Shown one piece after another: positions 27,722 to 50,116 of a stretch of 64,000 nucleotides of DNA. Numbering within the stretch: the first letter of the stretch is position 1; every line of letters starts with the position of its first letter. Location: contig NZ_CP093340.1 of NCBI RefSeq assembly GCF_022637415.1, forward strand, positions 3,385,001-3,449,000, given 5' to 3'. Position numbers and translations under genes: made by a program. This DNA is from Luteimonas sp. S4-F44 (lineage in GTDB: Bacteria; Pseudomonadota; Gammaproteobacteria; Xanthomonadales; Xanthomonadaceae). The notes beneath the pieces are model-generated. The model ran no database searches, was not told the origin of the DNA, and saw only the letters and a program-made list of their open reading frames with translations.

Positions 27722-29344
27722 GTGTCGCACTTCGACTCCATCGCAGATCGCGTCTCATCCGACCGGAGCAGAGTTACTGCGCTGCTGAACAACGGGCCGG
27801 GCGGACACGGTCTTGATATTGGTCCGCGGTTGGCGAACGCGTTCTCCGACACCATGAAATTGCTGACGGGCCAATTGGCTCAACAACAGTTCCCCGGCGT
27901 GAACTTCGTGAACGGGGCTCGCCCCTGGGACGGCGGCGCGCCGGTGGCGGATGCACGTCCGGGCTCCACCACGCTCCCTGGCGGCCTTCCGGTCCCGCCG
28001 CCCCCGCCGCTGCCGGCACTTCACGGCGGACAACCCATCCACAATGCCTGGAACGGCGGTCATCTCCACTCCGGTCATCCTTTCGGTCCGAACGTTGCAC
28101 CCCCTAACGGCATTCCCGCCGGTTCAGGGAACGACCTCGCCCCGGTCGCGCCCCGACCCGAGGGCAGTCATATGCCCCCTCTGCCTGCACCCAGCATCCC
28201 GGCACCGCCCCCAAGCCAGACCGGCGTGCTGCCGGCGCTAAGCAACCTGCTCGGCAATGCCCTACAGGCCGTCCACCAGTTGCTATCACCCGGCGCGGTG
28301 ACGACGCCCACAGTCGTCCAGCCAGGCCTGCCCGGCGGCGGCCCGCTCTCGACGCCGCAGGCCCTGCCGACGCCGATCACATCGGCTGCCAACCAGGTCG
28401 TGCGCGCGCTCAGCAATGCAGTGCCGGCCACCCCTCCGCCGACTGCCAGCATCACCACGCCTAACGCCGCGACGACGAACACACCACAGATGGGGGTCCC
28501 GAGCCAGGCAACCACCGCGCAGGCGATGCCGGCGCAGCAGGCGACCGCACCCGCACAGACGCTCGCGCAGCAGGCCGCGATTCCGCAGGTGCCGCAGACG
28601 ACGACCGCACAGCCCGGCCCACCGGCCCCCGGCACGGCGGCGTCGGTGCAGCCAGGGCCGGCGTCGGTGCCCGTGCAGGCGCCGCTTGCCCAGCCGCAGC
28701 GTACGGACGCCGCCGTGGTGCCAGTAGGCAACCCAGCCGCCGAGCGCAGCGCAGCGCCGCCGCAGACCGCCCCGCCGTCGCAGCTCGCGATCGCCAATAC
28801 GCCTGCCGGCACAACGCTCGCCGCCGTACCGGCGGCGGTGATGGCGGCCCAGACACCGCCCGCGCAACAGGTGGCCGGCAATACCCAGATCGCAGGCAAT
28901 CCCCAGGCAACGACACCGGCCGCCGGCGAACGCGGCGGCCCTTCGCGTGTCGACCTGGTGGCCACCGGCGTTTACACCGCCGACGGCCCGGGCCTGCGCC
29001 GCCGCAACTGGCTCAAGGTCGGCCCCGCCGACATCGGCCAGTGGATGCTCGCGCTGGCGCAGGGCCGGCGAGTGCTGATCCGCCCCCAGGACGATCTGCC
29101 GGCCGAAATCGCGCGTGCAATGCAGTGGCTGTTCTGGACACTTGCCCTGGTGGCCTACGGCTGCCTGGGCCTGGTGCTGGTCAGCGTTCTGCTGAACGTC
29201 AGCGACGTGCCGACTGTCCCTGCGATGCGACGCTGGAGCAGCGAACTCGCGTTCGCGGGCCTGGCGGCCGCCTGCGGTGCATGGTGGCTCGCCCGCCGGC
29301 TCAACGCTCCGGCACGCGGCTCGGCCGGCCCGCTCCGGCGATAG
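27722..29344 (+). CDS. Pro/Ala/Gln-rich protein with two C-terminal membrane helices
   Basis: About 540 residues from a GTG at 27722 (start uncertain; the frame is open from 27503 but the upstream part has no protein-like composition). After a short helical N-terminus (FDSIADRVSSDRSRVTALL), residues about 80-400 are a low-complexity stretch rich in Pro, Ala, Gln and Thr. A compact C-terminal domain follows (RVDLVATGVYTADGPGLRRR, KVGPADIGQWMLALAQGRRV) and then two hydrophobic helices at about 467-491 and 509-525. The family is not recognised. Position at the edge of the type III locus and the two-helix end make a translocon, secreted or membrane-anchored accessory role possible. Confidence 0.6.
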   Translation: MSHFDSIADRVSSDRSRVTALLNNGPGGHGLDIGPRLANAFSDTMKLLTGQLAQQQFPGVNFVNGARPWDGGAPVADARPGSTTLPGGLPVPPPPPLPALHGGQPIHNAWNGGHLHSGHPFGPNVAPPNGIPAGSGNDLAPVAPRPEGSHMPPLPAPSIPAPPPSQTGVLPALSNLLGNALQAVHQLLSPGAVTTPTVVQPGLPGGGPLSTPQALPTPITSAANQVVRALSNAVPATPPPTASITTPNAATTNTPQMGVPSQATTAQAMPAQQATAPAQTLAQQAAIPQVPQTTTAQPGPPAPGTAASVQPGPASVPVQAPLAQPQRTDAAVVPVGNPAAERSAAPPQTAPPSQLAIANTPAGTTLAAVPAAVMAAQTPPAQQVAGNTQIAGNPQATTPAAGERGGPSRVDLVATGVYTADGPGLRRRNWLKVGPADIGQWMLALAQGRRVLIRPQDDLPAEIARAMQWLFWTLALVAYGCLGLVLVSVLLNVSDVPTVPAMRRWSSELAFAGLAAACGAWWLARRLNAPARGSAGPLRR

Positions 29345-29390
29345 ACCCGCCAGCCGCGCGACCCGGCGCGCTCCCCGGTCCTGACCGCGC

Positions 29391-30089
29391 TCAGCGCGCG
29401 ACCAGGCCGTCGTCGGTCAGTTCGATGCGCTGCAGATCGATGCCACTGCCCTGCAGGCCTTTGCGCGCCGCCGAGGCCAAGGCCGCCAGCGCTTCGCGAT
29501 TGCCCTGGCGCTTCATCGTCTGGTACGACAGCGCCGAGACCATCGTCAAATAAGCCGTGCGCTCGGCCTGCGCCTGCTTGGCCGCATCGCTCATGCCGGC
29601 GATCTGCGGCACGGCGGCCAAGGGACCGATCAACTGACGACGGACCGCGCGCTGTCCCTCCGGTACACGCGCCGAGTCGCGGTCGTTGGCGACCTCCCAG
29701 GAGATCAGCAGGTGCGCGGCCAGCACGTCGCCGAGATTGGTCGGGTCGTATCCGTAGCGCCGCAAAATGCCATCGAACTGGCGCAGCAACTCGCCCGAGC
29801 CGATCACCTTTTCCAAGTCGGCGACCTGCTGCGGATCGCGCCCGAAGGCCTGGATGGTTTCTTGCTGCACCCGCTCGCTGATGGCGCGATCGCGCCGGAA
29901 CGATAGGGTCTGGACCGCCTGTGCATCGACCTGCGCGGGCGCCGGTCGCGAGACCGCCTGTTGCAATGCGCGCTGGACAGCCGCGTCGCCATCGGCGCCC
30001 TGTCCCGTGGCCGCGGCGAGCAGCATCGCCCCGCACATCAAAAGCCCGGCGACAGCGCGGACACGGGATTTCGAACGATCAAACATCAC
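29391..30089 (-). CDS. Exported protein of the secretion locus, paralogue of its neighbour
   Basis: A 232-residue protein with a signal peptide (AVAGLLMCGAMLLAAATGQGADG) and an otherwise helical periplasmic domain. RRYGYDPTNLGDVLAAHLLISWEVAND and the C-terminal SGIDLQRIELTDDGLV align with GYPGTDIVDANALLFLVHWE and GNDLATIELTGAGF of the next gene, so the two are diverged paralogues. The family resembles uncharacterised DUF6683-type proteins, an assignment from memory only. ATGA overlap with the upstream gene shows cotranslation. Its role in the type III locus is unknown. Confidence 0.7.
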   Translation of the reverse strand: MMFDRSKSRVRAVAGLLMCGAMLLAAATGQGADGDAAVQRALQQAVSRPAPAQVDAQAVQTLSFRRDRAISERVQQETIQAFGRDPQQVADLEKVIGSGELLRQFDGILRRYGYDPTNLGDVLAAHLLISWEVANDRDSARVPEGQRAVRRQLIGPLAAVPQIAGMSDAAKQAQAERTAYLTMVSALSYQTMKRQGNREALAALASAARKGLQGSGIDLQRIELTDDGLVAR

Positions 30090-30805
30090 GAACCTCCCTG
30101 CGATGCGGCGTCCTGGCTGGACTGGAAGCCCGCGCCGGTCAATTCGATGGTGGCGAGATCGTTCCCGGTCTGCCGTTGAAAATCCTGCCGGATCGCCTGC
30201 GAGAACGCGGCCTGCGCGCGCGCCTGGCCGCGCATGCGATCGACCTGCCGCCCCAGGGCGGCGGCGACCAGTTCGTAAACGCGCTGGCGGTTGGCGAGCG
30301 CCTGCGTATCGCGCGCCTGCGCCCCCTGGCGCGCCCAGTGCGCAGCCATCTGCTCACGCAGGCCCGCCGCTTGCGACGGTGTCGCACGCACGCCGTGGAA
30401 GGCCTCCCAATGCACGAGAAAGAGCAGCGCATTGGCATCGACGATGTCGGTCCCGGGATAGCCAAGGGCCCGGTATCGTGCCTGCAGCCAGGCGTCCGCA
30501 TCGCCGGAGTTCACGAACTGGGAGAGATCGTCGATCCGCACACTGCTCAATGCCGGCCATTGCGCGCTGAACGCGGCACCCTCGCCGTCATCGGCAGACG
30601 CGGACGAGGTTGCCCCGGCGACACTCTGCACACCAGCGTTGTAGGCCTCGAGAAATGCCTGTTGATCCTGTTCGCCGGCGTCCGCACGCCCCGTGGCCTG
30701 GGTGGCTTGCGCCCCGTCCGAGCACGCCGTGACCAGACCGACGACAGCGAAAAGGAGCGGGCAACATGCCAATGCGCGACGTCGCCGCTGCACGCTACCG
30801 CTCAT
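30086..30805 (-). CDS. Lipoprotein of the secretion locus
   Basis: A 239-residue lipoprotein: after an Arg-rich start the signal ends LLFAVVGLVTACSD (lipobox Cys near residue 28). The mature protein begins with a Gln/Asp-rich stretch and continues as a helical domain shared with the gene at 29391 (GY-x-T-[DN]-[IL]-x-D...LL...WE core and an IELT C-terminal motif). ATG30805 is preferred; the frame extends 18 residues upstream. It overlaps the stop of the small exported protein gene before it. A lipoprotein here could be a pilotin-like or periplasmic accessory factor, which is inference only. Confidence 0.7.
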   Translation of the reverse strand: MSGSVQRRRRALACCPLLFAVVGLVTACSDGAQATQATGRADAGEQDQQAFLEAYNAGVQSVAGATSSASADDGEGAAFSAQWPALSSVRIDDLSQFVNSGDADAWLQARYRALGYPGTDIVDANALLFLVHWEAFHGVRATPSQAAGLREQMAAHWARQGAQARDTQALANRQRVYELVAAALGRQVDRMRGQARAQAAFSQAIRQDFQRQTGNDLATIELTGAGFQSSQDAASQGGS

Positions 30806-31166
30806 GCGCGTCCCGGCGTCCCAGTTCGAACGCCCACGCCCTGGCGCTCTCGACGCCATCCCGTTCCACGCGCTGACGATACTCGCGCGTCAGCGATTGG
30901 AGGCGCTGCGCGTCCATCGGTGCTTGGCCACTTGTCGACGCCTCCTCCGAGGCATCGTCCTCGCCACCCTCGCTGGTCACATCCATCGTGTGTTCCAGCG
31001 TGGTCTGCGACAACGCAGCCTGCCCATACCCCATGCCCAGGTCGGCCGTGGCGGACGGATCCCATTGCGCGAGGCTGGACAGCGAGAGCGGGAGCGCGAC
31101 CGCGCCCAGAATCAGACATAACGCTCGCGGCTTGCGAGGCGCGTGCTTGCGAACCGAAGACTTCAT
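30795..31166 (-). CDS. Small exported protein with the AW-helix motif
   Basis: A 123-residue protein. ATG31166 has a strong AGGAGGT ribosome-binding site five bases upstream and opens a signal peptide (KPRALCLILGAVALPLSLSSLAQ). The mature part is acidic and Ser/Thr-rich, then ends in a helix, REYRQRVERDGVESARAWAF. That helix resembles segments of the proteins encoded at 31817 and 32392 (aromatic, then D/R-G-x-[ED]-x-A-x-x-W). No known family. It overlaps the following lipoprotein gene by 11 bases. Confidence 0.65.
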   Translation of the reverse strand: MKSSVRKHAPRKPRALCLILGAVALPLSLSSLAQWDPSATADLGMGYGQAALSQTTLEHTMDVTSEGGEDDASEEASTSGQAPMDAQRLQSLTREYRQRVERDGVESARAWAFELGRRDAHER

Positions 31167-31295
31167 CGCACACCTCCTGTCGTCGACAACACGATTGATG
31201 GCGGGAACGACTCGACTGTAACGGTTGGACGGCACCGAAAGATGGACGCGGCCCAACGCGCCGATCAGCATCGGGAATGCGCGGTGTCCACCAAG

Positions 31296-31328: not shown

Positions 31329-31345
31329 TGAACCGCGCCTGGCAA

Positions 31346-31669
31346 TTACTGCTTGCGGGCGGCGCTGGTCAGACCTTCACCGATCGACTTGATCGCGGTG
31401 CTGATCGTGTTCGACAGCATGCTGAACATCTGCGATTCGGCCTGGAATTCCATCTGCGTCTTGCTGAATTCCTTGGCGTCCTTCTTGCTGTCCAGACCGC
31501 CCAGCTTGTCGCTGAGCTCGGTCATCTTCTCGGCCTTCTCGCCGAGCTTGGCACCCATCGCCTTGGCGATCGCCACCAGCCAGCTCTCACCCTTGCCGCC
31601 GCTGCTGCCGCTGACGCTGTCCAGGCCGATCTGACCGAGGGAAATGTTGAAATCGAGGTTGACGCTCAT
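31346..31669 (-). CDS. Needle/pilin-like small helical protein, paralogue of the SctF-position gene
   Basis: A 107-residue protein without signal peptide or Cys. A Gly/Ser-rich N-terminus (NISLGQIGLDSVSGSSGGKG) is followed by a long amphipathic helical region. SWLVAIAKAMGAKLGEKAEK and MTELSDKLGG align without gaps with SWYEAMSRAWGQTLDAQATR and ITNLSDVIGQ of the protein at 38958 (12 of 30 identical), and both end in an LSN...S...G-x-x-L...RKQ pattern. Size and shape fit a polymerising type III needle, pilus or filament subunit. A 15-bp hairpin after the gene and its own AT-rich leader suggest high expression. Confidence 0.65.
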   Translation of the reverse strand: MSVNLDFNISLGQIGLDSVSGSSGGKGESWLVAIAKAMGAKLGEKAEKMTELSDKLGGLDSKKDAKEFSKTQMEFQAESQMFSMLSNTISTAIKSIGEGLTSAARKQ

Positions 31670-31760
31670 GAGCTTCGTCTCCGTAGTTGAAAAAATTACC
31701 GAACCAAAAATGCTGGGCGGACAAGGAGAATCGCGTGCGTCCGCATCTATCGTTGGTATC

Positions 31761-31806
31761 GATGCTGCCGTTCCAACCAGCTTCGAACAACTAGGGGCGA
31801 CCCTAG
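31761..31806 (-). promoter_or_regulatory. Composite element A upstream of the needle-like gene
   Basis: Read on the minus strand, CTAGGG-TCGC-CCCTAG (31806 to 31791) is followed after exactly 30 bases by GATACCAACG (31770-31761). The same arrangement with a 29-base spacer occurs at 33069. It lies about 90-140 bases upstream of the ATG at 31669, a fitting place for an activator site and promoter. Confidence 0.5.
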
Positions 31807-31816
31807 CGAAGCGTAT

Positions 31817-32227
31817 TCAGATGACGCCAGAGCGCTGCGCCGCCGTGGCAGTTGCCAACCATTCACGCGCTGCGTCCTCGCCGCGCTCCCTGGAAATCCG
31901 CGCGAACTCGAGCGCGCGCTGTACCGAGGGGTTTTCGAAGACCTGAAGTGTGTCGGCAAATGCCCGCTGTACTTCGTCGGCGCCGGAGGCATCGAGCAAG
32001 CCGTGTTGCCCGAGCAGTCCGATCGTGTCGTCGAGACTGGCCCGGATCTGATCGGGGTTCGCGTCGGAGGGCGCGGTCATCGTCGCAAGCGTCTGCTCCA
32101 GATGCCCGAGCATGCTCTCCCGGCTGGCCGCGTCGATATCCTGCTGCTCGCGCAACTCCGCCTCGAACCGTTCCAGCAATGCGGCGCGCAGCGTTTCAAA
32201 ATTCTGTTCGGGGGATGTTGACGACAT
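31817..32227 (-). CDS. Small helical protein with the AW-helix motif
   Basis: A 136-residue, acidic, all-helical protein without signal peptide or membrane segment. The ATG at 32227 has AGGAG nine bases upstream. The N-terminal half (ETLRAALLERFEAELREQQD) is a probable coiled coil. Near the C-terminus FARISRERGEDAAREWLATA carries the aromatic-x(n)-G-x-[ED]-x-A-x-x-W pattern also seen at 30795 and 32392. Size and acidity resemble type III chaperones, but no chaperone family is recognised. Confidence 0.65.
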   Translation of the reverse strand: MSSTSPEQNFETLRAALLERFEAELREQQDIDAASRESMLGHLEQTLATMTAPSDANPDQIRASLDDTIGLLGQHGLLDASGADEVQRAFADTLQVFENPSVQRALEFARISRERGEDAAREWLATATAAQRSGVI

Positions 32228-32391: not shown

Positions 32392-32694
32392 TCAAGGCCC
32401 GACTTCGATGGTACTCAGCGAGTTGACCATCCGCCTGGCCTCGGCGCCTTCCCGCTCGCCCATTTCGCGAGCCTGTGCCCCCAGCCAGGCGTCGGCGACC
32501 TCCCGGCCGTCGCTCGCAGCGCGCCGATCGTACTCGGGGACGAGCGCCTTGAGTTCCTGCTGGACGACGTCGAGACGCTCGTCCATGTGCCGGATCAGCA
32601 CTGTCTCATCCTCGGCAGAGATCGCGCCCTGTTCACGCAACTGCGCGAGGCCGTCGATCCATGCCTGGCGCTGGGCCTGCTGGTCGTACTGCAT
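32392..32694 (-). CDS. Small helical protein with the AW-helix motif
   Basis: A 100-residue soluble helical protein starting QYDQQAQRQAWIDGLAQLRE. Its second half, EYDRRAASDGREVADAWLGA followed by an Arg/Glu-rich helix, shares the aromatic...DG-x-E-x-A-x-A-W pattern with the exported protein at 30795 and the protein at 31817. It begins three bases after the glycine-rich gene, so both are in one transcript. No family recognised; a chaperone or secreted-substrate role for the type III machine is possible. Confidence 0.6.
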   Translation of the reverse strand: MQYDQQAQRQAWIDGLAQLREQGAISAEDETVLIRHMDERLDVVQQELKALVPEYDRRAASDGREVADAWLGAQAREMGEREGAEARRMVNSLSTIEVGP

Positions 32695-32697
32695 GGA

Positions 32698-32922
32698 TCA
32701 GTTGCCCACGCCGAAGTTGAAGTTGAAGCCGCCCTTGAAGCCGTCGCTGACGGCGTCCTGCGCCGACTGCGGCAGGCCCATCGACGAGAACAGGCTGTCG
32801 AACGCGCCGCTGAAGGCCTGGCCGATCAGATCGCCCAGGATGTTGCCGATAATGCCGCCGAGCGGGCCGCCCAGCGCAGTACCGATGACGGAACCGATGG
32901 CGTCGGAAATTCCACCTGACAT
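32698..32922 (-). CDS. Glycine-zipper-like hydrophobic small protein
   Basis: A 74-residue protein with AAGGAG seven bases before its ATG. The first half is a run of Gly spaced every three to four residues among Ile, Leu and Val (IGTALGGPLGGIIGNILGDL, then IGQAFSGAF), a GxxxG pattern that packs membrane helices or self-assembles. The tail (KGGFNFNFGVGN) is Gly/Phe/Asn-rich. There is no charge pattern of a signal peptide. Harpin-like secreted, pore-forming or amyloid-like roles are imaginable; none is shown. It is the first gene of the accessory operon behind composite element B. Confidence 0.6.
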   Translation of the reverse strand: MSGGISDAIGSVIGTALGGPLGGIIGNILGDLIGQAFSGAFDSLFSSMGLPQSAQDAVSDGFKGGFNFNFGVGN

Positions 32923-33835: not shown

Positions 33836-33882
33836 TCCGCGCCGCAACGGCCGGCCCGAGGGCAGGCCAAAGGCGCGGGATC
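33834..33882. terminator. Convergent hairpin between GNAT gene and sctP
   Basis: GATCCGCGCC (33834-33843) pairs with GGCGCGG-G-ATC (33872-33882) with one bulged G. The inside can fold into further GGCC/GGCC and GCCC/GGGC stems. It covers the whole 45-base gap between two convergent genes, so it probably limits read-through on both strands, although no T-tract is present. Confidence 0.4.
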
Positions 33883-34537
33883 AGCCGTGGAAGTGCGGGT
33901 CGATCGTCAGCGTGCCGAGATTGCGCTCGGCAAAGCGGCGGGCCAACTGCGGCCCGGCTTCGCGGATGGCGTCGAAGCTCTCACGCGAACGACTGTCGGC
34001 GCGCAGCACCCAGCCCTCGCCCTCCCGCGTGAGCAGCAGGTCGGTGCCCGGGAGCGTGGCATCGGACATGCGCAGCAGCACCTGGCCATCACCGCCGGAC
34101 TGGCGTGCATCGTGGACCGCGAGCTGGCGGACGTGTCGCTCCATCATGTCGAGCAGTTGGCCCGGATCGGCGGGCGCCGGGGCCGCGGACGGCTGTGGCG
34201 CAGCGGCGCCATCGCGCAGCGCCATCTGCGCCTGCAGCATCGCCGCCGATTCGGCGGGCATGGGCTGGGACGACAGCCCGGACTCGTGCTGCTGCCGGAA
34301 CGTGCGCGCATCGAGGACGTCGGCCAGCGACTGGCCGGTCTTCGCCGCTTCCTGGCGGCTCGCCTGCTCGACCCCCGTGCCGCCGCCTTTGGCCTGCTGC
34401 ATCAACGAGCGGAACTTGTCGACCTGCTCGCGCGTGGCGACCTCGCGCGGGTCGGCCTTGGCCTGGCGATCGACCTGACGGTTGCGCGCCGACTGATCCG
34501 GGGGCCGGGCGCTCGAATCGTTGCGTTGAATGGTCAT
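33881..34537 (-). CDS. sctP: Type III secretion SctP candidate (needle-length/substrate switch)
   Basis: A 218-residue, Gln/Ala-rich, mostly unstructured protein with a compact C-terminal domain (LLDMMERHVRQLAVHDARQS, VLLRMSDATLPGTDLLLTRE, LARRFAERNLGTLTI). It resembles the T3S4/HpaP-type end of SctP proteins, which measure needle length and switch secretion specificity. The call rests mainly on gene order (L-N-O-P) and on the low-complexity N-terminus with a folded C-terminus. It follows sctO after 20 bases and is the last gene of the leftward run. Confidence 0.65.
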   Translation of the reverse strand: MTIQRNDSSARPPDQSARNRQVDRQAKADPREVATREQVDKFRSLMQQAKGGGTGVEQASRQEAAKTGQSLADVLDARTFRQQHESGLSSQPMPAESAAMLQAQMALRDGAAAPQPSAAPAPADPGQLLDMMERHVRQLAVHDARQSGGDGQVLLRMSDATLPGTDLLLTREGEGWVLRADSRSRESFDAIREAGPQLARRFAERNLGTLTIDPHFHG

Positions 34538-34557: not shown

Positions 34558-35040
34558 CTAGCGGCGCGCCAGATGGCGCGCCTGCATCAGATCCTCGGCA
34601 GTCGCCTCTTCCTGGCGCGCCTGCAACCCGCGTTGCTCGCCGCGCCACACGTCGCGCCGCTTCTCCAGCGCATCCTCGCGTGCCTTGGCGCGGAAGAACG
34701 CATCGCGCGCGGCCTGCAGGGCCTGCTCGGCCTCGCGCACCGCCTCCTGGGCCTTGGCCAGGCGCGCCTGGGCACCGACGATCTGCTCGCCGATCAGTTC
34801 GATGCACAGCTCGCGCTGAGTCAGCGCCGCCGGCCACGGCACGCCGGCCGGTGGTGGGTCGAGCAACCGCGCACGGTGCTGCGCACGCGAGGCGCGCAGG
34901 TCGTCGATCTCGCCTTCGATCCGCTGACAGGCCTCCTGGCACTGCTGCAGTGCGCGCTGCCGGTCCAGCACCACGCGCCGCGCCGCCTCGGTGCGATGCG
35001 CGCGCAGTTGCAGCAGCGTCTGCAGCGGGTAACGTTTCAT
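34558..35040 (-). CDS. sctO: Type III secretion SctO stalk protein
   Basis: A 160-residue protein that is almost entirely an antiparallel coiled coil (TLLQLRAHRTEAARRVVLDR, then KAQEAVREAEQALQAARDAF), with loop PPPAGVPWP at the tip. That is the shape of SctO/YscO/FliJ, the stalk that enters the hexameric ATPase and couples it to the export gate. Primary sequence is poorly conserved in this family; identification rests on length, coiled-coil pattern and position, with a four-base ATGA overlap after sctN. Confidence 0.8.
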   Translation of the reverse strand: MKRYPLQTLLQLRAHRTEAARRVVLDRQRALQQCQEACQRIEGEIDDLRASRAQHRARLLDPPPAGVPWPAALTQRELCIELIGEQIVGAQARLAKAQEAVREAEQALQAARDAFFRAKAREDALEKRRDVWRGEQRGLQARQEEATAEDLMQARHLARR

Positions 35041-36395: not shown

Positions 36396-37057
36396 GGCGC
36401 GGCCACGTGCGCGCTCGCCTGCGCCAACGCAGCGCGGATCGCCTCGATCTGCTGGCTGACCCCGGCGCGGACTTCGCCGGCCTCCGAGACCACGATGCAG
36501 CTCAAAGGGTCGAGACTTTCGTCATCGACCAGTTCGATCAGGCCGACACCCGGATGCGCCTGGCGCACGGCGCCCAGACCCTCGCCGACACGCTCGCGCA
36601 CCGAGGGGTGGACGCGGATCATCAGGAACTGTTCGGCCTGGGCCGATTCGACCGCCTGCATCACCAGTGCGGGCACGACCGCAGCGGCGTCGAAGCCCGG
36701 GGCCAGCCGCTGCACGATCGCGCAGGCCAGATCGCCGATGCGCCCGGCCGCGTCGGCCAGCACGCGCGCGCGGCGCTCGTTGAGCGACGCGAGCTGCTGG
36801 GTCATCTGCTGCTTGGCGCGCTCCAGGCCTTCGGAGAATCCTTCCGCGTAACCCTGCTCGCGCGCCTTCTGGATCTCGGCGCTTGCTTCCTCGTAGAGGG
36901 CGTTGACGCGTTCGAGCAGCGCGTCGAGCTCGCCCAGCGATCGCCACTCGGCCGCCCGGACGATTGGCCCGGCGACGCCGCGCTGGAACTGGCGGCGCTC
37001 GAAGACAGCGGCGCTGCCCTCGGGTCTGTGGCGCTGGGGAGAAGCGGCGGTCGACAT
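36392..37057 (-). CDS. sctL: Type III secretion SctL (ATPase stator)
   Basis: A 221-residue FliH/SctL-type protein. The middle is a charged coiled coil (SAEIQKAREQGYAEGFSEGL) and the C-terminal globular domain, HPSVRERVGEGLGAVRQAHP followed by VSEAGEVRAGVSQQIEAIRA, is the part that binds the ATPase. SctL links SctN to the SctQ pods. ATG37057 begins MSTAASPQ; the frame stays open upstream through sctK only as an artefact. It overlaps sctN (ATGA) and lies 31 bases after sctK. Confidence 0.9.
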   Translation of the reverse strand: MSTAASPQRHRPEGSAAVFERRQFQRGVAGPIVRAAEWRSLGELDALLERVNALYEEASAEIQKAREQGYAEGFSEGLERAKQQMTQQLASLNERRARVLADAAGRIGDLACAIVQRLAPGFDAAAVVPALVMQAVESAQAEQFLMIRVHPSVRERVGEGLGAVRQAHPGVGLIELVDDESLDPLSCIVVSEAGEVRAGVSQQIEAIRAALAQASAHVAAP

Positions 37058-38491: not shown

Positions 38492-38504
38492 CCAGGTCAC
38501 CTCG

Positions 38505-40627: not shown

Positions 40628-40714
40628 GAGTGTCCTCGCTTGGCGTACGCTGCGCGCGGCACCGCGAATATCCGTGCGGCCCGGCGGCATGCGCCCAGGT
40701 TTGATACGACATGG

Positions 40715-43028: not shown

Positions 43029-43472
43029 TTAACGATCGCCAGCGATATTGAAGCGCGCGTCTGTGCGCGTGGTCGTCTCGGGGGTCGGGGCGAGGTCGTC
43101 CGCCTCCAGATCGGTGACAAACGTCACGGATTGGGCGCCCACGCCGATGGCGAATGCCCGGCCGGCGCGCGATCGCACGACCACCAGCCGTTCCCGGGGA
43201 CCGACCGGCAGGATCTGCACCACCGTCAACGGCGTATCCCCGCCGGACAACCCATAGCGGCGGCGCAGCAACCGCAGCAGCAAGAGCAGGCCAGCGATGA
43301 TGAAGACCAGAGGCAGCACGATGGCCAGCATTTCGCCGACGAATGAGTCGCTGGTCGGCGCAACGGGTGCGGCAGGCGCAGCGGCGGCCCATCCCGGCAG
43401 CCAGGCGATGGCCAGTAGGCCGGACGCCCGGCGCAGTGCGGAGAAACGGGACGGGCAGGCGGCACGGGTCAT
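43029..43472 (-). CDS. FliO/MopB-like membrane protein in the type III locus
   Basis: A 147-residue protein. A signal-like hydrophobic stretch (SGLLAIAWLPGWAAA) is followed by one membrane helix at about 49-70 (LAIVLPLVFIIAGLLLLLRL), then a small beta domain with LTVVQILPVGPRERLVVVRS and AFAIGVGAQSVTFVTDL. That is the layout and core sequence of FliO, the flagellar scaffold for assembling the FliP/FliR (SctR/SctT) export gate. FliO homologues are not usual in injectisome loci. It stands at the head of the leftward operon, divergent from the histidine kinase (72 bases apart). Confidence 0.75.
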   Translation of the reverse strand: MTRAACPSRFSALRRASGLLAIAWLPGWAAAAPAAPVAPTSDSFVGEMLAIVLPLVFIIAGLLLLLRLLRRRYGLSGGDTPLTVVQILPVGPRERLVVVRSRAGRAFAIGVGAQSVTFVTDLEADDLAPTPETTTRTDARFNIAGDR

Positions 43473-43544
43473 GGCATCTGGGCGGGTGCGCACCGGAGCG
43501 GTGCCGGCCTACGGTATCAGCGCCGTGCGGGCTGCCGCTGTCGC

Positions 43545-44648
43545 ATGACAAGGGTCCCCGGCCAGGCGCGCGCATCCCGCTCCCGATCGACCGGGGGCGG
43601 TGCGCAATCCGAAGCGCTGGCCGCCGTGCTGACAGCCGTGCCGTTCGCGTGCGCGGCGTTCGACCGGCGCAGCGGCGCGCTGGTGGCTGCCAATCCGCGT
43701 TTCTCGGCCGACCTGGGCGCGCTGCCCGGCCACGGCCAGCGCGATGCGCTGCTGGCCAGTCTGTATGGCGACCTGACCGGCGAAGCGCGCGGCGAGGAAG
43801 TCCGCGCGCCGCACAGCGGCCGTTGGTATGCACTGCATTGGCGCGATCTCGACTGCGGCGGCCAAGCGTTGTCGCTGCTGACCGCGGTTGACATCAGCGA
43901 GCGCATCGAAACCCTGGACTCGCACAAGTCGCAGCAGGAAAAGCTGCTGTTCACCTCGCGGATGATGTCGGTCGGCGAGATGGCCGCCACGCTCGCGCAC
44001 GAGCTCAACCAGCCGCTGGCGGCGATCGTGAACTACCTCAACGGCAGCCTGCGGCTGGTCGGCCAGGCCGGCGGCCCGGTCCAGGTCGAGCGCGCGCTGC
44101 AGGCCGCGCGCACCCAGGCCGAGCATGCGAGCGCGGTGATCGCGCGCGTGCGCGAGTTCGTCCGCGCCCGCGAGCCGCGCCGCGACGCCCAGGAATTGCC
44201 GCTGATCGTCGACACCGTGCTCGAGCTGCTGCGGCTGGAAGCCGAGCGTCAGCAGTTGCGCGTGGAACTGGCGCTACCGGCCTCGCTGCCGCCGGTCTAT
44301 GCCGACCGGGTGATGATCGAGCAGGTGCTGCTGAATCTGGTCAAGAACGCGATCGAGGCGATGCGCGAGGTCCCCGCCGCGCAGCGCGGCCTGCGGATCG
44401 AGGCCCGGGTCAACCTGGACGACGAGATCGAGGTCCGGGTCTGCGACCGCGGCCCGGGCCTGAGCCCGGCACAGAGCGAGCAGCTGTTCTCGCCGTTCTA
44501 CACCACCAAATCCGATGGCCTGGGCATTGGCTTGGCGATCTGCAGGTCGATCATCGAATACCACGAAGGGCGGCTATTCTTCGAGGCCATGGATGGCGGA
44601 GGCAGCGTGTTCGGTTTCACGCTGCCCACGCCCGACAGGAGGATCTAG
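43545..44648 (+). CDS. Soluble PAS-type sensor histidine kinase
   Basis: A 367-residue histidine kinase with no membrane segment. The N-terminal 120 residues look like a PAS fold (VPFACAAFDRRSGALVAANP). The H box is LAHELNQPLAAIVNYLNG near residue 150, and the ATPase boxes are NLVKNAIEAM (N), VCDRGPGLSP (G1), LFSPFYTTKSDG (F) and GLGIGLAICRSI (G2). The type (HELNQPL) is that of FixL/DctB/TtrS kinases. It probably senses an internal signal and pairs with the regulator one base downstream. As first gene of the sctQ-T operon it is probably dedicated to this machine. Confidence 0.92.
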   Translation: MTRVPGQARASRSRSTGGGAQSEALAAVLTAVPFACAAFDRRSGALVAANPRFSADLGALPGHGQRDALLASLYGDLTGEARGEEVRAPHSGRWYALHWRDLDCGGQALSLLTAVDISERIETLDSHKSQQEKLLFTSRMMSVGEMAATLAHELNQPLAAIVNYLNGSLRLVGQAGGPVQVERALQAARTQAEHASAVIARVREFVRAREPRRDAQELPLIVDTVLELLRLEAERQQLRVELALPASLPPVYADRVMIEQVLLNLVKNAIEAMREVPAAQRGLRIEARVNLDDEIEVRVCDRGPGLSPAQSEQLFSPFYTTKSDGLGIGLAICRSIIEYHEGRLFFEAMDGGGSVFGFTLPTPDRRI

Positions 44649-44650: not shown

Positions 44651-45250
44651 ATGCCCGGCACGCCTTGCGTCTATCTGGTCGACGACAACGATGGTTTCCG
44701 CGACTCCACGGCCTGGCTGCTGGAGACGGCGAACTTCGAAGTGCGGGCGTTCGCATCCGCCGCCGCCTTTTTGACCGTGTTCGACAGCACCCGCCACGGC
44801 GACGACGAATGCCTGGTGTCGGACATCCGCATGCCCGAGATGAGCGGCCTGCAGTTGCAGGACGAACTGCTGCGCCGCGGCTCCTCGCTACCGTTGATCT
44901 TCGTGACCGCGCACGGCGACGTGCCGCTGGCGGTCGAGGCGATGCGAAAGGGCGCATCGAACTTCCTGGAAAAGCCCTTCAGCGACGAGGCACTGGTCGA
45001 GGCGATCGGCCATGCGCTGCGCCGCGAGCGCCGACAGGCGGGGGCGCCCCAGGGCGAGGCGCTGGCGAAACTGAGCCCGCGCGAGCGCCAGGTACTCGAC
45101 CTGGTCGTGGCCAGCAAGCCCAACAAGATCATCGCCGACATCCTGGGCATCAGCATCAAGACCGTGGAACTGCATCGCGCGAACATGATGAGCAAACTGG
45201 GCGTACGCTCGTTGCCCGAACTGATGAAGGTGGCGCTTGGACATGGCTGA
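44651..45250 (+). CDS. FixJ/TtrR-type response regulator
   Basis: A 199-residue regulator. The receiver domain has VYLVDDNDGFRDSTAWLLET, phospho-acceptor Asp in CLVSDIRMPEMSGLQLQDEL (near residue 58), FVTAHGDVPLAVEAMRKGA and EKPF. The C-terminal LuxR-type helix-turn-helix is KLSPRERQVLDLVVASKPNK followed by ISIKTVELHRANMMSKLGVR. It is cognate to the kinase before it. The last codons overlap the start of sctQ, so regulator and ring protein are translated together. Likely targets are the type III promoters, including the palindromic elements near 31.8 and 33.1 kb (inference). Confidence 0.92.
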   Translation: MPGTPCVYLVDDNDGFRDSTAWLLETANFEVRAFASAAAFLTVFDSTRHGDDECLVSDIRMPEMSGLQLQDELLRRGSSLPLIFVTAHGDVPLAVEAMRKGASNFLEKPFSDEALVEAIGHALRRERRQAGAPQGEALAKLSPRERQVLDLVVASKPNKIIADILGISIKTVELHRANMMSKLGVRSLPELMKVALGHG

Positions 45251-46295
45251 CTCGGGCGCATCGGCCCACCCCCGCACCGCGACCGCGCTGCGCGAGCGCA
45301 TCCCCCATCTGACCGCCGCCCAGGCGCAGGCACTGCGCGCGCTGCACCGCCGGCGCCGGCAGTGGCCGTCGCCCGCCGGCACGCTGGTCCTGCGCGAGGG
45401 CCGCCCCGGCGATCCGGCAAGCGTGTTCGAGCTCGACGCCGACGGCAGCCGGGTGGGCCTGCGCCTGAGCGCAGCACCGGCGGCCGCCGACGATGATGCG
45501 CTACGCTGGCAGGACCACCAGGGACGCGCGCGCGTGCTCGCCTGGAGCCTGACGCACGAGGCCGCGCTGGTGCGGCTGAGCGAGGCGCTGGGCACCTCGC
45601 TGCTGCCGCTGCCCGACCCACCGCCGGCACCGGCTGTCGATGAGGTCTGGGTCGACTTCGAGCTGCGTACCGACGACGGCGCGTCGCTGACCGGCAGTCT
45701 GCGCGCGAGCGTCGACTGGCTGACCGCCGCGCTCGGCCGCGACGCAGCGACCGATGCCGTGGCCGCCGATACCGGCCACTGGCGCCAATTGCCGGCCGCC
45801 GTGTCGCTGGCGCTGGCCGGGCCGCCGCTGACCACCGCCGATCTACGCGATCTGCGTCCCGGCGATGTGGTGATCGTCGGTTCGACCCGCCAGCCGACGC
45901 TGCACGCCGATGCCGTCGGCCTGCGCTGGCCGATCCGGCCCGGCGCCGAGGGCTGGCGGATCGACGGCCCCCCGAGCCCCCAACCCCGATTCCAGGAGAG
46001 TGCCCCAATGAGCGACACCGACGCGCCCGACGCGCCCGACACCCCCGCCGCCGAGGCGCCCGCGCCCGTCGAGGACCCGGCCAGCCGCCTGCCGGTGGAG
46101 GTGGCGTTCGAGCTGGGCAAGGTCGAGCTGCGGCTGGGCGATGTCGCCGGCCTGCAGCCGGGCTACGTGTTCGCGCTGCCTGCGCATCTGGAAGGGGCGA
46201 ACGTGACGATCCGCGCCAACGGCCGTGTCGCCGGCCAAGGGGAACTGGTCGCTGTCGGCGACACGCTCGGCGTGCGCCTGCTGTCCTGGAGCTGA
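45243..46295 (+). CDS. sctQ: Type III cytoplasmic-ring protein SctQ
   Basis: A 350-residue SctQ/YscQ protein. The N-terminal part is Ala/Arg-rich and divergent; the C-terminal SpoA domain (LPVEVAFELGKVELRLGDVA, then GANVTIRANGRVAGQGELVA and GDTLGVRLLSW) is clear. SctQ builds the pods of the sorting platform with SctL and SctK. ATG45243 overlaps the regulator stop; a TTG at 45237 is an alternative. Residues about 230-285 are a Pro/Ala/Asp-rich linker that contains a second start signal (separate entry). Confidence 0.88.
   Translation: MADSGASAHPRTATALRERIPHLTAAQAQALRALHRRRRQWPSPAGTLVLREGRPGDPASVFELDADGSRVGLRLSAAPAAADDDALRWQDHQGRARVLAWSLTHEAALVRLSEALGTSLLPLPDPPPAPAVDEVWVDFELRTDDGASLTGSLRASVDWLTAALGRDAATDAVAADTGHWRQLPAAVSLALAGPPLTTADLRDLRPGDVVIVGSTRQPTLHADAVGLRWPIRPGAEGWRIDGPPSPQPRFQESAPMSDTDAPDAPDTPAAEAPAPVEDPASRLPVEVAFELGKVELRLGDVAGLQPGYVFALPAHLEGANVTIRANGRVAGQGELVAVGDTLGVRLLSWS
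46008..46295 (+). other. Probable internal start giving the 95-residue SctQ-C
   Basis: Inside sctQ, AGGAG (45994-45998) lies nine bases before an in-frame ATG at 46008. The resulting product would be the SpoA domain with a short Asp/Pro-rich N-terminal extension (MSDTDAPDAPDTPAAEAPAP). Internal starts producing SctQ-C of similar size are known in YscQ, SsaQ and Spa33, where full-length and short forms assemble together. Confidence 0.6.
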
Positions 46296-46298: not shown

Positions 46299-47276
46299 AT
46301 GGACTTCAGCACGTTCTCGCCCGCCCTCGTCCTGGTGACGGTGGTCAGCCTGGCGCTGGCGCCGTTCGTGGCGGTGATGGTGACCTCCTTCACCAAGATC
46401 GTGGTGGTGCTCAGTCTGTTGCGTAACGCGCTCGGCCTGCAGCAGGTGCCGCCGAACGTGGTCATCAACGGCCTGGCGATCGTGCTGTCGATCTACGTGA
46501 TGTACCCGGTGATCCTCGACGTCAACGCCGCCGTCGAGGCGCGGCTCGAAGGGCGGCCGCCGCCGGCGTCGGTGCAGCGCCAGATCGAGGCGCGCGCCCA
46601 GCAGCAGGCCGTGCGCGAGGGTCGCGCGATCGAAGTCCGGCCCGCGGCCCCAACCACCGCGACGCAGGCCGAGACCGCGACCAGCCCGGCCGCGGCCGAC
46701 GGCCTGGCCGCCGAAGCGCAGGCCCGCGGCCCGGCGCCCGATCCGATGTTCAGTGCGGTGCGTGGTGGCTCGAGCAACGACCCGCCCGAAGCGCGCGAGC
46801 CGGTGCTGCCGGCGCTTGCCGAAGAGATCACCCAGCCGGCCACGCCGAGCGCGGCACCGGCGGTGAGCGGCGCGTTCGACACCAACCGGCTGCTGACGAT
46901 GATCGACGCTGGCAAGGAACCATTGCGCACATTCCTGATCCAGCACTCCAGCGATGCCGAGCGTGCGTTCTTCCTGCGCAGCGTGCAGCGCATGCTGCCG
47001 GCCGAGCGCCGCGGCGACCTGACGCCCGATGACTTCATCGTCGTGGTGCCGGCCTTCACCGTCAGCGAGCTCACCGCCGCGTTCCAGATCGGCTTTCTGA
47101 TCTTCCTGCCGTTCTTGATCATCGACCTGGTCGTGGCCAACATCCTGCTCGCACTGGGCATGATGATGCTCTCGCCCACGACCGTGTCGCTGCCGTTCAA
47201 GCTACTGCTGTTCGTGCTGATCGACGGCTGGGCCAAGCTGGTGCACGGCCTCGTGCTCACTTACGGAACGACCTGA
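46299..47276 (+). CDS. sctR: Type III export-gate protein SctR with a long inserted segment
   Basis: A 325-residue SctR/FliP-family protein, against about 215-250 usually. The N-terminal helices (VTSFTKIVVVLSLLRNALGL, QQVPPNVVINGLAIVLSIYV) and the C-terminal part (FIVVVPAFTVSELTAAFQIG, FLIFLPFLIIDLVVANILLA) are typical. Between them, residues about 85-195 are a Gln/Ala/Pro-rich stretch with no counterpart in the family. SctR forms the pore with SctS and SctT. No signal peptide is obvious. It starts three bases after sctQ and overlaps sctS by one base. Confidence 0.93.
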   Translation: MDFSTFSPALVLVTVVSLALAPFVAVMVTSFTKIVVVLSLLRNALGLQQVPPNVVINGLAIVLSIYVMYPVILDVNAAVEARLEGRPPPASVQRQIEARAQQQAVREGRAIEVRPAAPTTATQAETATSPAAADGLAAEAQARGPAPDPMFSAVRGGSSNDPPEAREPVLPALAEEITQPATPSAAPAVSGAFDTNRLLTMIDAGKEPLRTFLIQHSSDAERAFFLRSVQRMLPAERRGDLTPDDFIVVVPAFTVSELTAAFQIGFLIFLPFLIIDLVVANILLALGMMMLSPTTVSLPFKLLLFVLIDGWAKLVHGLVLTYGTT

Positions 47277-47542
47277 TGGGCGACGTCCTGGAGTTCACCA
47301 AGGAAGCGCTGTGGCTGGTGCTGCTGCTGTCGGGGCCGCCGATCGCGGCCGCGGCGCTGATCGGCCTGGTGGTCGCGTTCCTGCAAGCGGCCACGCAGCT
47401 GCAGGAGCAGACGTTCCCCTACGCGCTGAAGTTTCTGACCGTGGTCATCATGCTGTTTGTGACCGGATCGCTGATCGGCGGCACGCTGTATGTGTTCGCC
47501 GACCGCATCTTCCTCGACTTCCCCGGCCTCGTCCGGCGCTGA
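47276..47542 (+). CDS. sctS: Type III export-gate protein SctS
   Basis: An 88-residue protein with two membrane helices, a helical hairpin. LVLLLSGPPIAAAALIGLVV and AFLQAATQLQEQTFPYALKF are the conserved FliQ/SctS core, in which the Gln/Glu-rich loop forms the lower gate of the pore. The ATG shares its first base with the sctR stop, and the stop overlaps sctT as TGATG, so R, S and T are translated as a block. Confidence 0.95.
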   Translation: MGDVLEFTKEALWLVLLLSGPPIAAAALIGLVVAFLQAATQLQEQTFPYALKFLTVVIMLFVTGSLIGGTLYVFADRIFLDFPGLVRR

Positions 47543-48327
47543 TGTTCGACTTCACGCAGAACCCGTTACTGGCGCTGGCGCTGACGCTGCCGCGCGTGGC
47601 CGGGGCGTTTTTGATGCTGCCGCTGCTGACCACCGAGACGGTGCCGGCGATGGTGCGCAACAGCTTCATGGTCAGCCTGGCGATCGTGGCAATCCCGATC
47701 GCACTGGCTGGGGCGCCGCCGATCGAGGCCGCCGGCACCGCGCACTGGTCGGCGATCGTGCTCAAGGAAACCTTCATCGGCATCTCGATCGGGTTCTGCT
47801 ACGGCATCGTGTTCTGGGCGATCAGCTCGGCCGGCGTGATCATCGACACCCAGGTGGGCATGTCGATGGCGCAGATCTTCGATCCGATCCAGGGCCACCA
47901 GACCTCGCTGCATGGCGAGTTCCTGTCGCAACTCTCGTCGTGGCTGTTCATGGCCAGTGGCGCATTCCTGGTGTTCCTGGACCTGCTGATGACCAGCTAC
48001 ACGGTGTGGCCGGTCATGAGTTTCTTCCCCGACATCCGGCTCAGTGGCATGGCCTTGTTCGTCGGGCAGTTCAGTTACCTGATGACAGCGATGCTGCTGC
48101 TCGCCGCGCCGGCGATGGTGATCCTGCTGGTCATCGACCTGTCGTTCGGCCTGGTCAACCGCTACGCGCCGCAGCTCAACGTGTTCGCGCTGACGATGCC
48201 GATCAAGGCCTGGCTGGCGACGGCGATCATCCTGCTGATGCTCGGCGTATTCGTCGAGATCGTGATGCGCCGGCTGGTCGACAACAGCGGACTGGTGAAT
48301 GCCTTGAAGAACGCGTTCGGCGGTTAG
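47542..48327 (+). CDS. sctT: Type III export-gate protein SctT
   Basis: A 261-residue FliR/SctT-family protein with about six membrane helices. LPRVAGAFLMLPLLTTETVP, KETFIGISIGFCYGIVFWAI and DTQVGMSMAQIFDPIQGHQT are family blocks, and NRYAPQLNVFALTMPIKAWL is the strongest signature. SctT completes the pore complex and links it to SctU. It is the last gene of the rightward operon and converges on sctU with 24 bases between the stops. Confidence 0.95.
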   Translation: MFDFTQNPLLALALTLPRVAGAFLMLPLLTTETVPAMVRNSFMVSLAIVAIPIALAGAPPIEAAGTAHWSAIVLKETFIGISIGFCYGIVFWAISSAGVIIDTQVGMSMAQIFDPIQGHQTSLHGEFLSQLSSWLFMASGAFLVFLDLLMTSYTVWPVMSFFPDIRLSGMALFVGQFSYLMTAMLLLAAPAMVILLVIDLSFGLVNRYAPQLNVFALTMPIKAWLATAIILLMLGVFVEIVMRRLVDNSGLVNALKNAFGG

Positions 48328-48351
48328 CCGGGCCGAGCGCGCTGTGTGCGG

Positions 48352-49557
48352 TCAGCGCATCGGATCGCGCGGATCCTCAAACCGCTGAAGGACCGACGGA
48401 TCGTCGGCCAGCGGCGGCGCGGGCGCAGGCTCGGCCGCCAGGCCGATCTCCTCGCGCATGTCCTCGGGCGGCACGAACTCCGGCGGCTCGGGGCGCGACT
48501 CGCCCGAGCGCATGCCTTCGGCCCAGTACAGCACCTGGGCGACGGCCTCGAAGAATTCGTTGCCGATGTAGTCGTCGATCTCCACGCGCGCATTGAGGCC
48601 GCGCGCCAGCGGCACGTTCTGCAGGATCGGCACGCCCGATTCCTCGGCCACGCGCCGGATCTCCTCGGCCATGTGCCCTTCGCCCTTGGCCACGACCAGC
48701 GGCAGGTCGTCGGTGCCCTGCTCGTACTGCAAAGCGACGGCGATGTGGGTGGGATTGGTCACAACGACGCTCGATCCGCGGACGGCATTGAGCATGTTCT
48801 GCTGCGACCACTCCTGGTGCAACTGCTTGCGCCGCTGCTTGACGTACGGGTCGCCCTCGTTCTCCTTGACCTCCTGCTTGATGTCGCGCCGGCTCATGCG
48901 CAGCTTCTTGATGTAGGAGTACTTCTGGTAGGAGGCGTCGACCGCGGAGACGAAGAAGAAAACGAAGATCGTCCAGATCCCGATCCACTTGAGCGCATGC
49001 CAGATCCCGCTACCGATCGCCGCGGGCTGGGCGAACGGCAGGTTCAGCAGGCTGGGGAGCATGCCCCAGAGCACGAAACCGCCGATGGCGAGCAGCGCCA
49101 CGCTCTTGAACATCGACTTGATCAGCTCGATGAGATTGTCCATCGAGAACATCTTCTTGATGCCGCTGACCGGGTTCATCTTCGACAGATCGGGCGTGAC
49201 CTTTTTCATCGTGGCCACCGGCCCGACCTGCAGGAATTCCACCAGCAGGCCCAGCAGCACCGCCATCAACAGCAGCGGCAGCGTCATCGACAGGAATACC
49301 TGCGCGGCCAGCGGCACAACGGTGCGCAGCGCGATGTCGAACGGCTGGTTCAAGACCTCGAGGGTCTGATCGAACAGCCCGCGCACGCGCCGGAACATGA
49401 AACCCATCAACAGCCAGCCGCCGACCAGCCAGCCCATCACCAGCACGGTGCTGGTCAGTTCCCGGCTCTTGCTGACATTGCCTTCCTTGCGGGCATCCTT
49501 GAGCTTCTTGCTGGTCGGCTGTTCAGTCTTGTCGGCGCCTTCGTTCTGCTCTGCCAT
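48352..49557 (-). CDS. sctU: Type III autoprotease switch protein SctU
   Basis: A 401-residue FlhB/SctU-type protein. The N-terminus KTEQPTSKKLKDARKEGNVS, four membrane helices (about 38-205), a charged linker (KKLRMSRRDIKQEVKENEGD) and the autocleavage motif NPTH at 268-271 in VVVTNPTHIAVALQYEQG are all intact. Cleavage switches specificity from rod/needle to later substrates. After the usual end near residue 350 there is an extra acidic Pro-rich tail of about 50 residues. It is transcribed alone, opposite to sctQ-T. Confidence 0.95.
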   Translation of the reverse strand: MAEQNEGADKTEQPTSKKLKDARKEGNVSKSRELTSTVLVMGWLVGGWLLMGFMFRRVRGLFDQTLEVLNQPFDIALRTVVPLAAQVFLSMTLPLLLMAVLLGLLVEFLQVGPVATMKKVTPDLSKMNPVSGIKKMFSMDNLIELIKSMFKSVALLAIGGFVLWGMLPSLLNLPFAQPAAIGSGIWHALKWIGIWTIFVFFFVSAVDASYQKYSYIKKLRMSRRDIKQEVKENEGDPYVKQRRKQLHQEWSQQNMLNAVRGSSVVVTNPTHIAVALQYEQGTDDLPLVVAKGEGHMAEEIRRVAEESGVPILQNVPLARGLNARVEIDDYIGNEFFEAVAQVLYWAEGMRSGESRPEPPEFVPPEDMREEIGLAAEPAPAPPLADDPSVLQRFEDPRDPMR

Positions 49558-49798
49558 ACGGGCCTGCACCGGCGCATCACGGGGATCTGGAGGCTAGCAC
49601 GCAGCACGCAGGCATCGCGCAGTGCGCAGACAACGCGGAAGCGGGACACCGGCCATCGTGCATTCATGTTGAGGCCGGCGAGCGCCGGCCACAGCGCGCA
49701 CCCCTAGGGCCAGCCCGAGATAGCCCGCATGTGGCACCGGCGTTACAGTCGCGCCATCGTCGCCACGAGCGGCATCCACGGACCCCAGCGGACACGGC

Positions 49799-50116
49799 AT
49801 GAGCGGTATCTCTTCCAACACCGGCTTCACCGCCGCCAGCCTCGAACGGCTGGGCAGCCAGGTCACATTCGACGACCTGCGCCAGCCCGATGGCAGCGGG
49901 CTCGTCGGTCTGGGCGAGGCCGACAACGCGCTCATAGCCCGCGGTCCGCAGGCCGATCCGGGTGAGGACATGCTCAATGCCGTCGCCTGGGCCGATGTTC
50001 CGGACGGATCGCGGCTGTTCGCCGGCGATCGCGCGTTCGAAGGCCGGCTCGCCGGCCTGGATCTCGCCGCCGCAGCCGATCACGGCACCGACGCGATCCT
50101 CGACGCGCTCGGCTAG
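49799..50116 (+). CDS. Unrecognised small acidic protein next to sctU
   Basis: A 105-residue acidic protein without signal peptide, Cys or membrane helix. Sequence such as NTGFTAASLERLGSQVTFDD and DEDMLNAVAW-type segments is not of a family known to me. It is divergent from sctU across a 241-base gap that contains CCCTAGGG at 49702-49709 and otherwise nothing clear. Composition (Asp, Gly, Ala, Leu) is like that of small type III substrates or chaperones, so it may be the right-hand end of the secretion locus. Confidence 0.55.
   Translation: MSGISSNTGFTAASLERLGSQVTFDDLRQPDGSGLVGLGEADNALIARGPQADPGEDMLNAVAWADVPDGSRLFAGDRAFEGRLAGLDLAAAADHGTDAILDALG

Follow-up and report, generated by a model that had tools for sequence, protein, structure and literature searches.

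Background

Type III secretion systems (T3SS) without a gene for the outer-membrane secretin SctC have been described in Lysobacter and in Myxococcus. In five Lysobacter strains the type III secretion pathways were reported to lack a secretin, the only homologues being those of type II secretion (T2S) and of the type IV pilus (T4P) (de Bruijn 2015, PMC4657364); the T3SS genes of L. capsici have been catalogued and their expression reported (PMC10384520), and a further paper deals with the Lysobacter T3SS (PMC9410377). The secretin-less myxococcal systems were placed as early-diverging (Abby and Rocha 2012, PMC3459982), and the Myxococcus system, T3SS*, has been described as needleless (PMC3459982, PMC12075869). 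T3SS operons that include FliO have been reported from two Luteimonas species and from Xanthomonadales (PNAS 2025, PMC12403147). The locus described here lies at positions 27722..50116 of a window of 64,000 nucleotides from Luteimonas sp. S4-F44 (assembly GCF_022637415.1, contig NZ_CP093340.1, positions 3,385,001 to 3,449,000, forward strand). It is a genuine non-flagellar T3SS (NF-T3SS) with uninterrupted frames on the Luteimonas chromosome, a single contig of 3,685,273 bases that is 100 % complete. Its identity, the absence of SctC, a single loss of SctC in its lineage and the maintenance of the remaining genes are all well supported. Injectisomes are considered to require a secretin.

Secretin, gatekeeper and translocator searches

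An SctC profile found no secretin in the window, and the search of the complete genome with PF00263 gave two places, recognised by eye as a pilMNOPQ neighbourhood and a gsp cluster. The two secretins score above the NCBIfam cut-offs as PilQ (491 bits) and GspD (538 bits); scored as SctC they reach 140 and 109 bits, respectively, against a cut-off of 238. A profile of eight SctC sequences from the sister clade defined below matched the PilQ and GspD places at only 106 and 83 bits, and six SctC sequences outside that profile, used as a control, scored 477-523 bits. Ten T3SS-bearing Luteimonas genomes, those with three secretins included, were searched with the same profile, and none of them had an SctC-like match; the best score was 121 bits, and all matches fell within columns 227-599 of 620. 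Secretins were counted in 52 genomes of the genus and SctV was surveyed in 37. Exactly two secretins were present in ten T3SS-bearing genomes that are at least 99 % complete (G000, G004, G005, G010, G014, G019, G024, G025, G030 and G035), and the remaining T3SS-bearing genomes have at least three, except the less complete G006 and G033. An earlier note on this DNA, made from its letters alone, had claimed a T3SS locus lacking the secretin, the gatekeeper SctW and a recognisable translocon. As to the secretin this is upheld, the window having none and the genome holding only PilQ and GspD, so the outer-membrane ring protein of a complete injectisome is missing. As to the gatekeeper, the HrpJ/SctW profile had no match at E<=1 in the genome, a weak negative because none of the control genomes reached the cut-off. 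No classic translocator family was matched among 30 frames scanned, some of them wrong-frame around SctT/SctU; to that extent the note's statement on the translocon stands, although two proteins described below, one with a glycine-zipper and one needle-like, soften it.

Loss of SctC in the Luteimonas/Lysobacter lineage

Genome contigs were scanned with an SctV alignment, and the named loci come from the best 80 matches. Fifteen SctC-less loci (the window, ten congeners, L116, L117, L119 and L122, the last from Lysobacter) were compared with 17 SctC-bearing loci, namely six of Rhodanobacteraceae type (family code f12) and 11 of a sister clade (L105 from G341, L107-L115 and L158). With an iterated SctC profile, SctC was found beside SctV in 11/11 sister loci and in 0/15 Luteimonas/Lysobacter loci; many other T3SS loci in the scan also had no SctC match, but their stretches are short and no inference was drawn from them. 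In a sample of 250 genomes of the order, eight besides that of the window had a protein of SctV type matching at E<=1e-120. The six Rhodanobacteraceae-type relatives among them are 58-62 % identical and include Dokdonella sp., Dyella sp. SG609 and Dyella subtropica; Dokdonella belongs to the Rhodanobacteraceae and Luteimonas to the Lysobacteraceae. In all six, SctC lies directly after SctV, between SctV and SctD, and the core order is otherwise that of the window. Among 395 genomes sampled from the family, an SctC-type match (E<=1e-50) occurred in 30, none of them from Luteimonas. The one of the 30 that was read, G699 from another genus of the Lysobacteraceae, has the same locus with SctC in place between SctV and SctD, and its SctV is up to 77 % identical to that of Luteimonas. 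At the site that SctC occupies in these relatives, the window has a SctV-SctD junction of 24 bp (40691..40714, minus strand). Measured by frame limits, the gap is at most 294 nt in the 15 SctC-less loci and 299-2421 nt in the 17 SctC-bearing loci, in which the low values arise because of long open frames. From the gaps and the trees described next it follows that SctC was lost cleanly.

In the SctV tree made with the careful method (11 rows of an earlier tree dropped, six added) the SctC-less loci form a clade (support 100/100), which is joined by the Rhodanobacteraceae-type loci (100/100) and then by the sister clade (100/100). A quick SctV tree joined G699 to the SctC-less clade (Shimodaira-Hasegawa-like approximate likelihood-ratio support 99), outside Luteimonas and Lysobacter, which group together at 99. 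A joint clade of SctC-less and sister rows received 99 in the SctU tree and a weaker 91 in the midpoint-rooted SctN tree, neither of which included the Rhodanobacteraceae-type rows. The sister SctC sequences form one clade (100/99) within injectisome SctC, apart from PilQ and GspD, in a tree whose rows are short, whose branches are long and whose outgroup gave no clean rooting. The SctV tree, a check that the earlier note had proposed, does not place the locus within any family of identical gene content, as its nearest relatives outside Luteimonas and Lysobacter have SctC. Because relatives keep SctC in the same gene order and the SctC-less clade nests inside SctC-bearing loci, the secretin was lost, not never acquired, and the gene was very probably removed by one precise loss after Luteimonas and Lysobacter split from the genus of G699.

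It is barely credible that the system is primitive and, like that of the myxococci, has always been without a secretin. FliO without a secretin is indeed also seen in two Myxococcota loci, but SctC-bearing loci branch on both sides of the SctC-less clade, and the approximately unbiased (AU) test rejected both a tree with the SctC-less rows at the base of the other NF-T3SS rows (p=0.003) and one that groups them with L161 and L169, taken as the myxococcal rows (p=0.0003), in each case without the Rhodanobacteraceae-type rows. L161 and L169 (Archangium and Corallococcus) themselves nest near Chlamydiota, not basally as in Abby and Rocha (PMC3459982).

One further difference accompanies the absence of SctC. 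The second aromatic residue of a C-terminal motif in SctD is F or Y in all 17 SctC-bearing loci; G699 has Y, whereas 15/15 SctC-less loci have no F, Y or W at that position (H in one). In injectisome structures the C-terminus of SctD faces the secretin. The C-terminal tail of SctD as such was considered as a Luteimonas novelty and rejected, as it is also present in Rhodanobacteraceae-type loci.

Loss of a lytic transglycosylase as a partner of SctC loss was suspected, since such a gene stands beside SctV in 9/11 sister loci as against 62-65 bits in 3/15 SctC-less loci. The suspicion was rejected, because Rhodanobacteraceae-type loci carry SctC without one beside SctV (a distant match of 41 bits in 1/6), and it is also opposed by LysM/SLT proteins after SctP in L039 and G699. 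Such proteins after SctP, not found in the window, are located at L039:9902-10951 (minus strand) and L232:8401-10041 (plus strand), with M23 as well in G699.

Maintenance of the locus

Within Luteimonas, the data support purifying selection on the T3SS since the loss. The ratio of nonsynonymous to synonymous substitution rates (dN/dS) of the sct genes and fliO, SctU left out, is 0.13-0.44 against G001 and 0.19-0.65 against G028. SctV of at least 78 % identity is present in 31/37 genomes of the genus, that of the window included, with partial matches in G006 and G033, so the locus is not a chance occurrence; among named SctV homologues (the best 120 of 8000) most are from Luteimonas. A decaying relic, suggested by one missing core gene and by the absence of SctV from 6/37 genomes, is nevertheless most improbable, given the low dN/dS, the lack of inner stops in the window and the presence of SctP to SctT in 10/10 congeners read. 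SctU is present in 7/10 of those stretches; its absence from the other three was considered and rejected, as SctU was found elsewhere (L187, L189 and L190, from G001, G005 and G020), in two cases on another contig.

Gene content of the locus

The core genes claimed in the earlier note are present at 27722..50116 without inner stops. The minus strand carries SctP-O-N-L-K-J-I-F-D-V and a FliO homologue, the plus strand a histidine kinase, a response regulator and SctQ-R-S-T, and SctU is again on the minus strand. SctV, SctR, SctT and SctJ score above NCBIfam cut-offs for NF-T3SS, and SctN, SctS, SctQ and SctU are assigned by family only. A short SctJ and an FHA-type SctD are present, not FliF, and the export gate is not of the FlhA type: SctV (40715..42772) reaches 742 bits with TIGR01399, above cut-off, and 588 bits with the FlhA model, below cut-off. 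A separate flagellar-type FHIPEP protein is encoded elsewhere in the genome, at 1739471. Clade membership with the Dokdonella and Dyella loci and the same core order place the locus in the Lysobacterales FliO-type T3SS.

Several assignments on the minus strand are borderline. The HpaP-like ruler SctP (33881..34537; PF09483 22.9 bits), which the earlier note had called likely, lies just under the Pfam cut-off of 23.8, and the putative needle SctF (38958..39293, between SctI and SctD) is called from position, alignment and pattern of conservation. SctF has no Pfam needle match of its own, and the homologous domain of a sister protein scores 16.4 bits with PF09392 (cut-off 29.4). The HrpB2-like inner rod SctI (38505..38924) scores 26.0 bits with PF09487 (cut-off 26.5), and SctD (39365..40690) scores 39.4 bits with PF16697, above cut-off, and 81 bits with TIGR02500 (NCBIfam cut-off 86). 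SctK (37089..37709) has no Pfam match and is called by position and by conservation in 10/10 congeners. The ATPase SctN (35037..36395; PF00006 and PF18269) has SctN as its best NCBIfam names, below the equivalog cut-offs and above the FliI/YscN subfamily cut-off. The other genes of this strand are SctO (34558..35040; PF16789, 61 bits), SctL (36392..37057, start picked by eye; PF02108 29.4 bits, cut-off 24.1, and PF06635 22.8 bits, cut-off 23.3), SctJ (37712..38500; TIGR02544 162.2 bits, cut-off 161.95), the FliO homologue (43029..43493; PF04347 41 bits, cut-off 22) and SctU (48352..49569; PF01312 382 bits). The plus strand carries the histidine kinase (43545..44648), the LuxR-type response regulator (44651..45250), SctQ (45237..46295; PF01052), SctR (46299..47276; TIGR01102 248.7 bits, above cut-off), SctS (47276..47542; PF01313) and SctT (47542..48327; PF01311, and TIGR01401 216 bits on a longer frame). 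Next to SctU, but on the plus strand, are a small conserved protein (49799..50116) and a conserved protein (50171..50848) that has no Pfam match above cut-off and also occurs in SctC-bearing loci. A GNAT acetyltransferase (33152-33835, plus strand) lies inside the T3SS region and is found in 6/15 SctC-less, 4/6 Rhodanobacteraceae-type and 2/11 sister loci.

Needle-like and small proteins

A hypervariable second needle-like protein, F1 (31346..31669, minus strand), is a candidate tip or translocon part. Its profile matches that of SctF with 96.5 % probability (E 1e-9), and a search with the single F1 sequence finds the SctF of the window at E 1.3e-7. F1 is 35-95 % identical in eight close relatives, whose SctV is 89-97 % identical, and a small protein (31817..32227, minus strand), possibly its partner or chaperone, varies together with it (27-94 % in the same relatives). 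Two more genes on this strand encode a small protein that may be a chaperone and has an iterated profile in common with the preceding one (32392..32694), and a glycine-zipper protein of 74 aa (32698..32922) whose profile is found in 8/15 Luteimonas/Lysobacter loci. F1 of the window shares 42 % identity with that of G010 (SctV 97 % identical), and the neighbouring protein 32 % over part of its length; with G024 the values are 95 % and 94 %. This variation fits a surface-exposed part. F1 and its neighbour (31346-32227) look like a cassette swapped between otherwise near-identical loci. G010, with the SctV closest to that of the window, apparently carries the record label Xanthomonas citri pv. 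mangiferaeindicae although it falls within Luteimonas, and the record is probably misnamed.

The glycine-zipper and an F1-like domain share one frame in 5/11 sister loci by profile (L108, L110, L112, L114 and L115) and in L113 by eye. The f12G652 copy is likewise fused, and other f12 copies differ in their N-terminal parts; the window and G699 encode the glycine-zipper and the F1-like protein as separate, adjacent genes. Needle sequences in the PDB matched the fused protein only weakly (E 0.13-1.5), ranking below other matches that look like chance, and SctF matched no needle there.

Exported and 540-aa proteins at 27.7-30.9 kb

A Pro/Ala-rich protein of 540 aa (27722..29344, plus strand) has a hydrophobic C-terminal end and is a possible translocator-like or membrane part. 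Its hydropathy exceeds 1.6 only at residues 468-502, and a second hydrophobic segment was seen by eye in the alignment. The gene occurs in 12/15 Luteimonas/Lysobacter loci, the three misses having 10-kb flanks, and was not found in the 17 SctC-bearing loci, many of them short-flanked, nor in G699. A database search returned 18 proteins including itself; the names are all Luteimonas apart from one labelled Xanthomonas, and there is no Lysobacter. The next two genes, on the minus strand, encode an exported DUF6683 protein (29391..30089; Pfam 66.6 bits), also present in SctC-bearing loci, and a relative of it that is lipoprotein-like by eye (30086..30859; 13 bits, below the Pfam cut-off) and patchy in occurrence. 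DUF6683 genes were found in 4/15 SctC-less, 3/6 Rhodanobacteraceae-type and 2/11 sister loci, some with short flanks, and in 8/8 close-relative stretches that reach that far.

The earlier note had offered the proteins at 27.7-31.2 kb as local candidates for an unusual outer-membrane part. That an unrelated protein from this region replaces SctC can be recommended by the exported and lipoprotein-like genes, by the constancy of DUF6683 in the close relatives and by the finding of the 540-aa gene only in the SctC-less group. It is nonetheless very unlikely, as DUF6683 stands beside SctC in 5/17 loci and was not found in 11/15 SctC-less loci (some short-flanked), and the 540-aa protein ends in what by eye are hydrophobic helices, not an outer-membrane barrel. 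The DUF6683 genes (29.4-30.9 kb) are accordingly not supported as substitutes. The 540-aa protein is kept as a candidate component, more likely a translocator-like or inner-membrane part than an outer-membrane pore.

Possible routes of export

The explanation preferred here, given a probability of about 0.6, is that this T3SS, after its lineage had lost the secretin in a single event, has continued to carry needle and tip through the outer membrane. It retains the rod, ruler and needle-like protein along with the export gate and the sorting platform, and also the variable second needle-like protein. On this view SctD would no longer depend on contact with a ring, and the glycine-zipper protein and F1 would form the tip or translocon. 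Because the needle-like, rod and ruler genes and the hypervariable needle-like protein remain, the machine may still reach the outside. The locus itself would then not encode the passage through the outer membrane. GspD or PilQ, secretins already present in the cell, may be borrowed in the place of SctC, or the needle may pierce the membrane with no ring around it, possibly only when contact is made. In Lysobacter a secretin adjoining T2SS genes has been assigned to the T3SS (PMC13163355), and it may serve both systems. The full formulation, a needle-bearing injectisome that became secretin-free by loss and operates across the outer membrane with no secretin of its own, docking onto the T2S or T4P secretin or pushing a glycine-zipper-tipped needle through the membrane, is tentative, at slightly less than even odds.

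Several points weigh against this explanation. Service by GspD or PilQ is hypothetical, and so is secretion itself. The F1 dN/dS values of 1.03 and 0.98 provide no clean selection test because the alleles are very divergent. The SctD change separates one clade from the others, so a single event suffices for it. For Lysobacter the loss is represented by one locus (L122) and the 2015 paper (PMC4657364). SctP and SctK profiles had no match in the 11 sister loci, and the family is for that reason less uniform than the Lysobacterales loci. Lastly, the missing ring would also be explained by an inner-membrane exporter that, after SctC loss, delivers to the periplasm only or passes its substrates to a different apparatus, a mode of action suggested for the Myxococcus T3SS*. 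Tad-like pili have their own secretin. The myxococcal system (PMC3459982, PMC12075869) is a precedent for such an exporter, and the lack of any ring and the altered SctD motif agree with it, but that system works with a Tad-like pilus (PMC12075869), whereas the only secretins in the genome studied here are of the PilQ and GspD types, and the needle-like, rod and ruler genes and the hypervariable tip-like protein are retained; the exporter, although the chief alternative, is considered rather unlikely. Continued export of needle and tip is therefore preferred, and the interpretation in the earlier note is, overall, partly supported.

Comparison with known systems

Secretin absence in Lysobacter (PMC4657364) and FliO in the Luteimonas T3SS (PMC12403147) were already known, and the finding added here is that the secretin was lost, not never acquired. 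No description of secretin loss in this lineage was recognised in the literature searched, whose coverage mostly excludes subscription papers. A T3SS without a secretin is not necessarily primitive, a point of relevance for the account of T3SS origins based on myxococci. Because related lineages share one locus whose core content differs by SctC, the function of an SctC-free T3SS in soil bacteria can be tested directly.

The Rhodanobacteraceae-type loci and G699 share with the window the same core order including FliO, kinase, regulator and SctU (5/6 of the former, one being at a contig edge), and differ in having SctC and the second aromatic residue of the SctD motif. The sister clade (Sphingomonas, Novosphingobium, Erythrobacter, Burkholderiales and Granulosicoccaceae) resembles it in needle-like genes, in FliO (9/11) and in forming one clade with its group, and differs in SctC (11/11) and in the lytic transglycosylase beside SctV noted above. 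The Lysobacter T3SS has the core genes and a two-component pair (PMC10384520, PMC13163355), and L122 is also without SctC; it belongs to another genus, and the loss is not traced in the accessible parts of PMC4657364, PMC9410377, PMC10384520 and PMC13163355. A Corallococcus protein of 72 aa (L169:8079-8297, plus strand) in a secretin-less T3SS locus resembles a needle protein only faintly (13.5 bits with PF09392, far below cut-off). The myxococcal NF-T3SS resembles the Luteimonas system in having no secretin and in a FliO homologue, present in 2/3 myxococcal loci examined. It differs in belonging to another clade, as the AU test shows with L161 and L169 taken as myxococcal, and in being described as needleless (PMC3459982, PMC12075869), whereas the Luteimonas locus keeps a needle-like gene between SctI and SctD.

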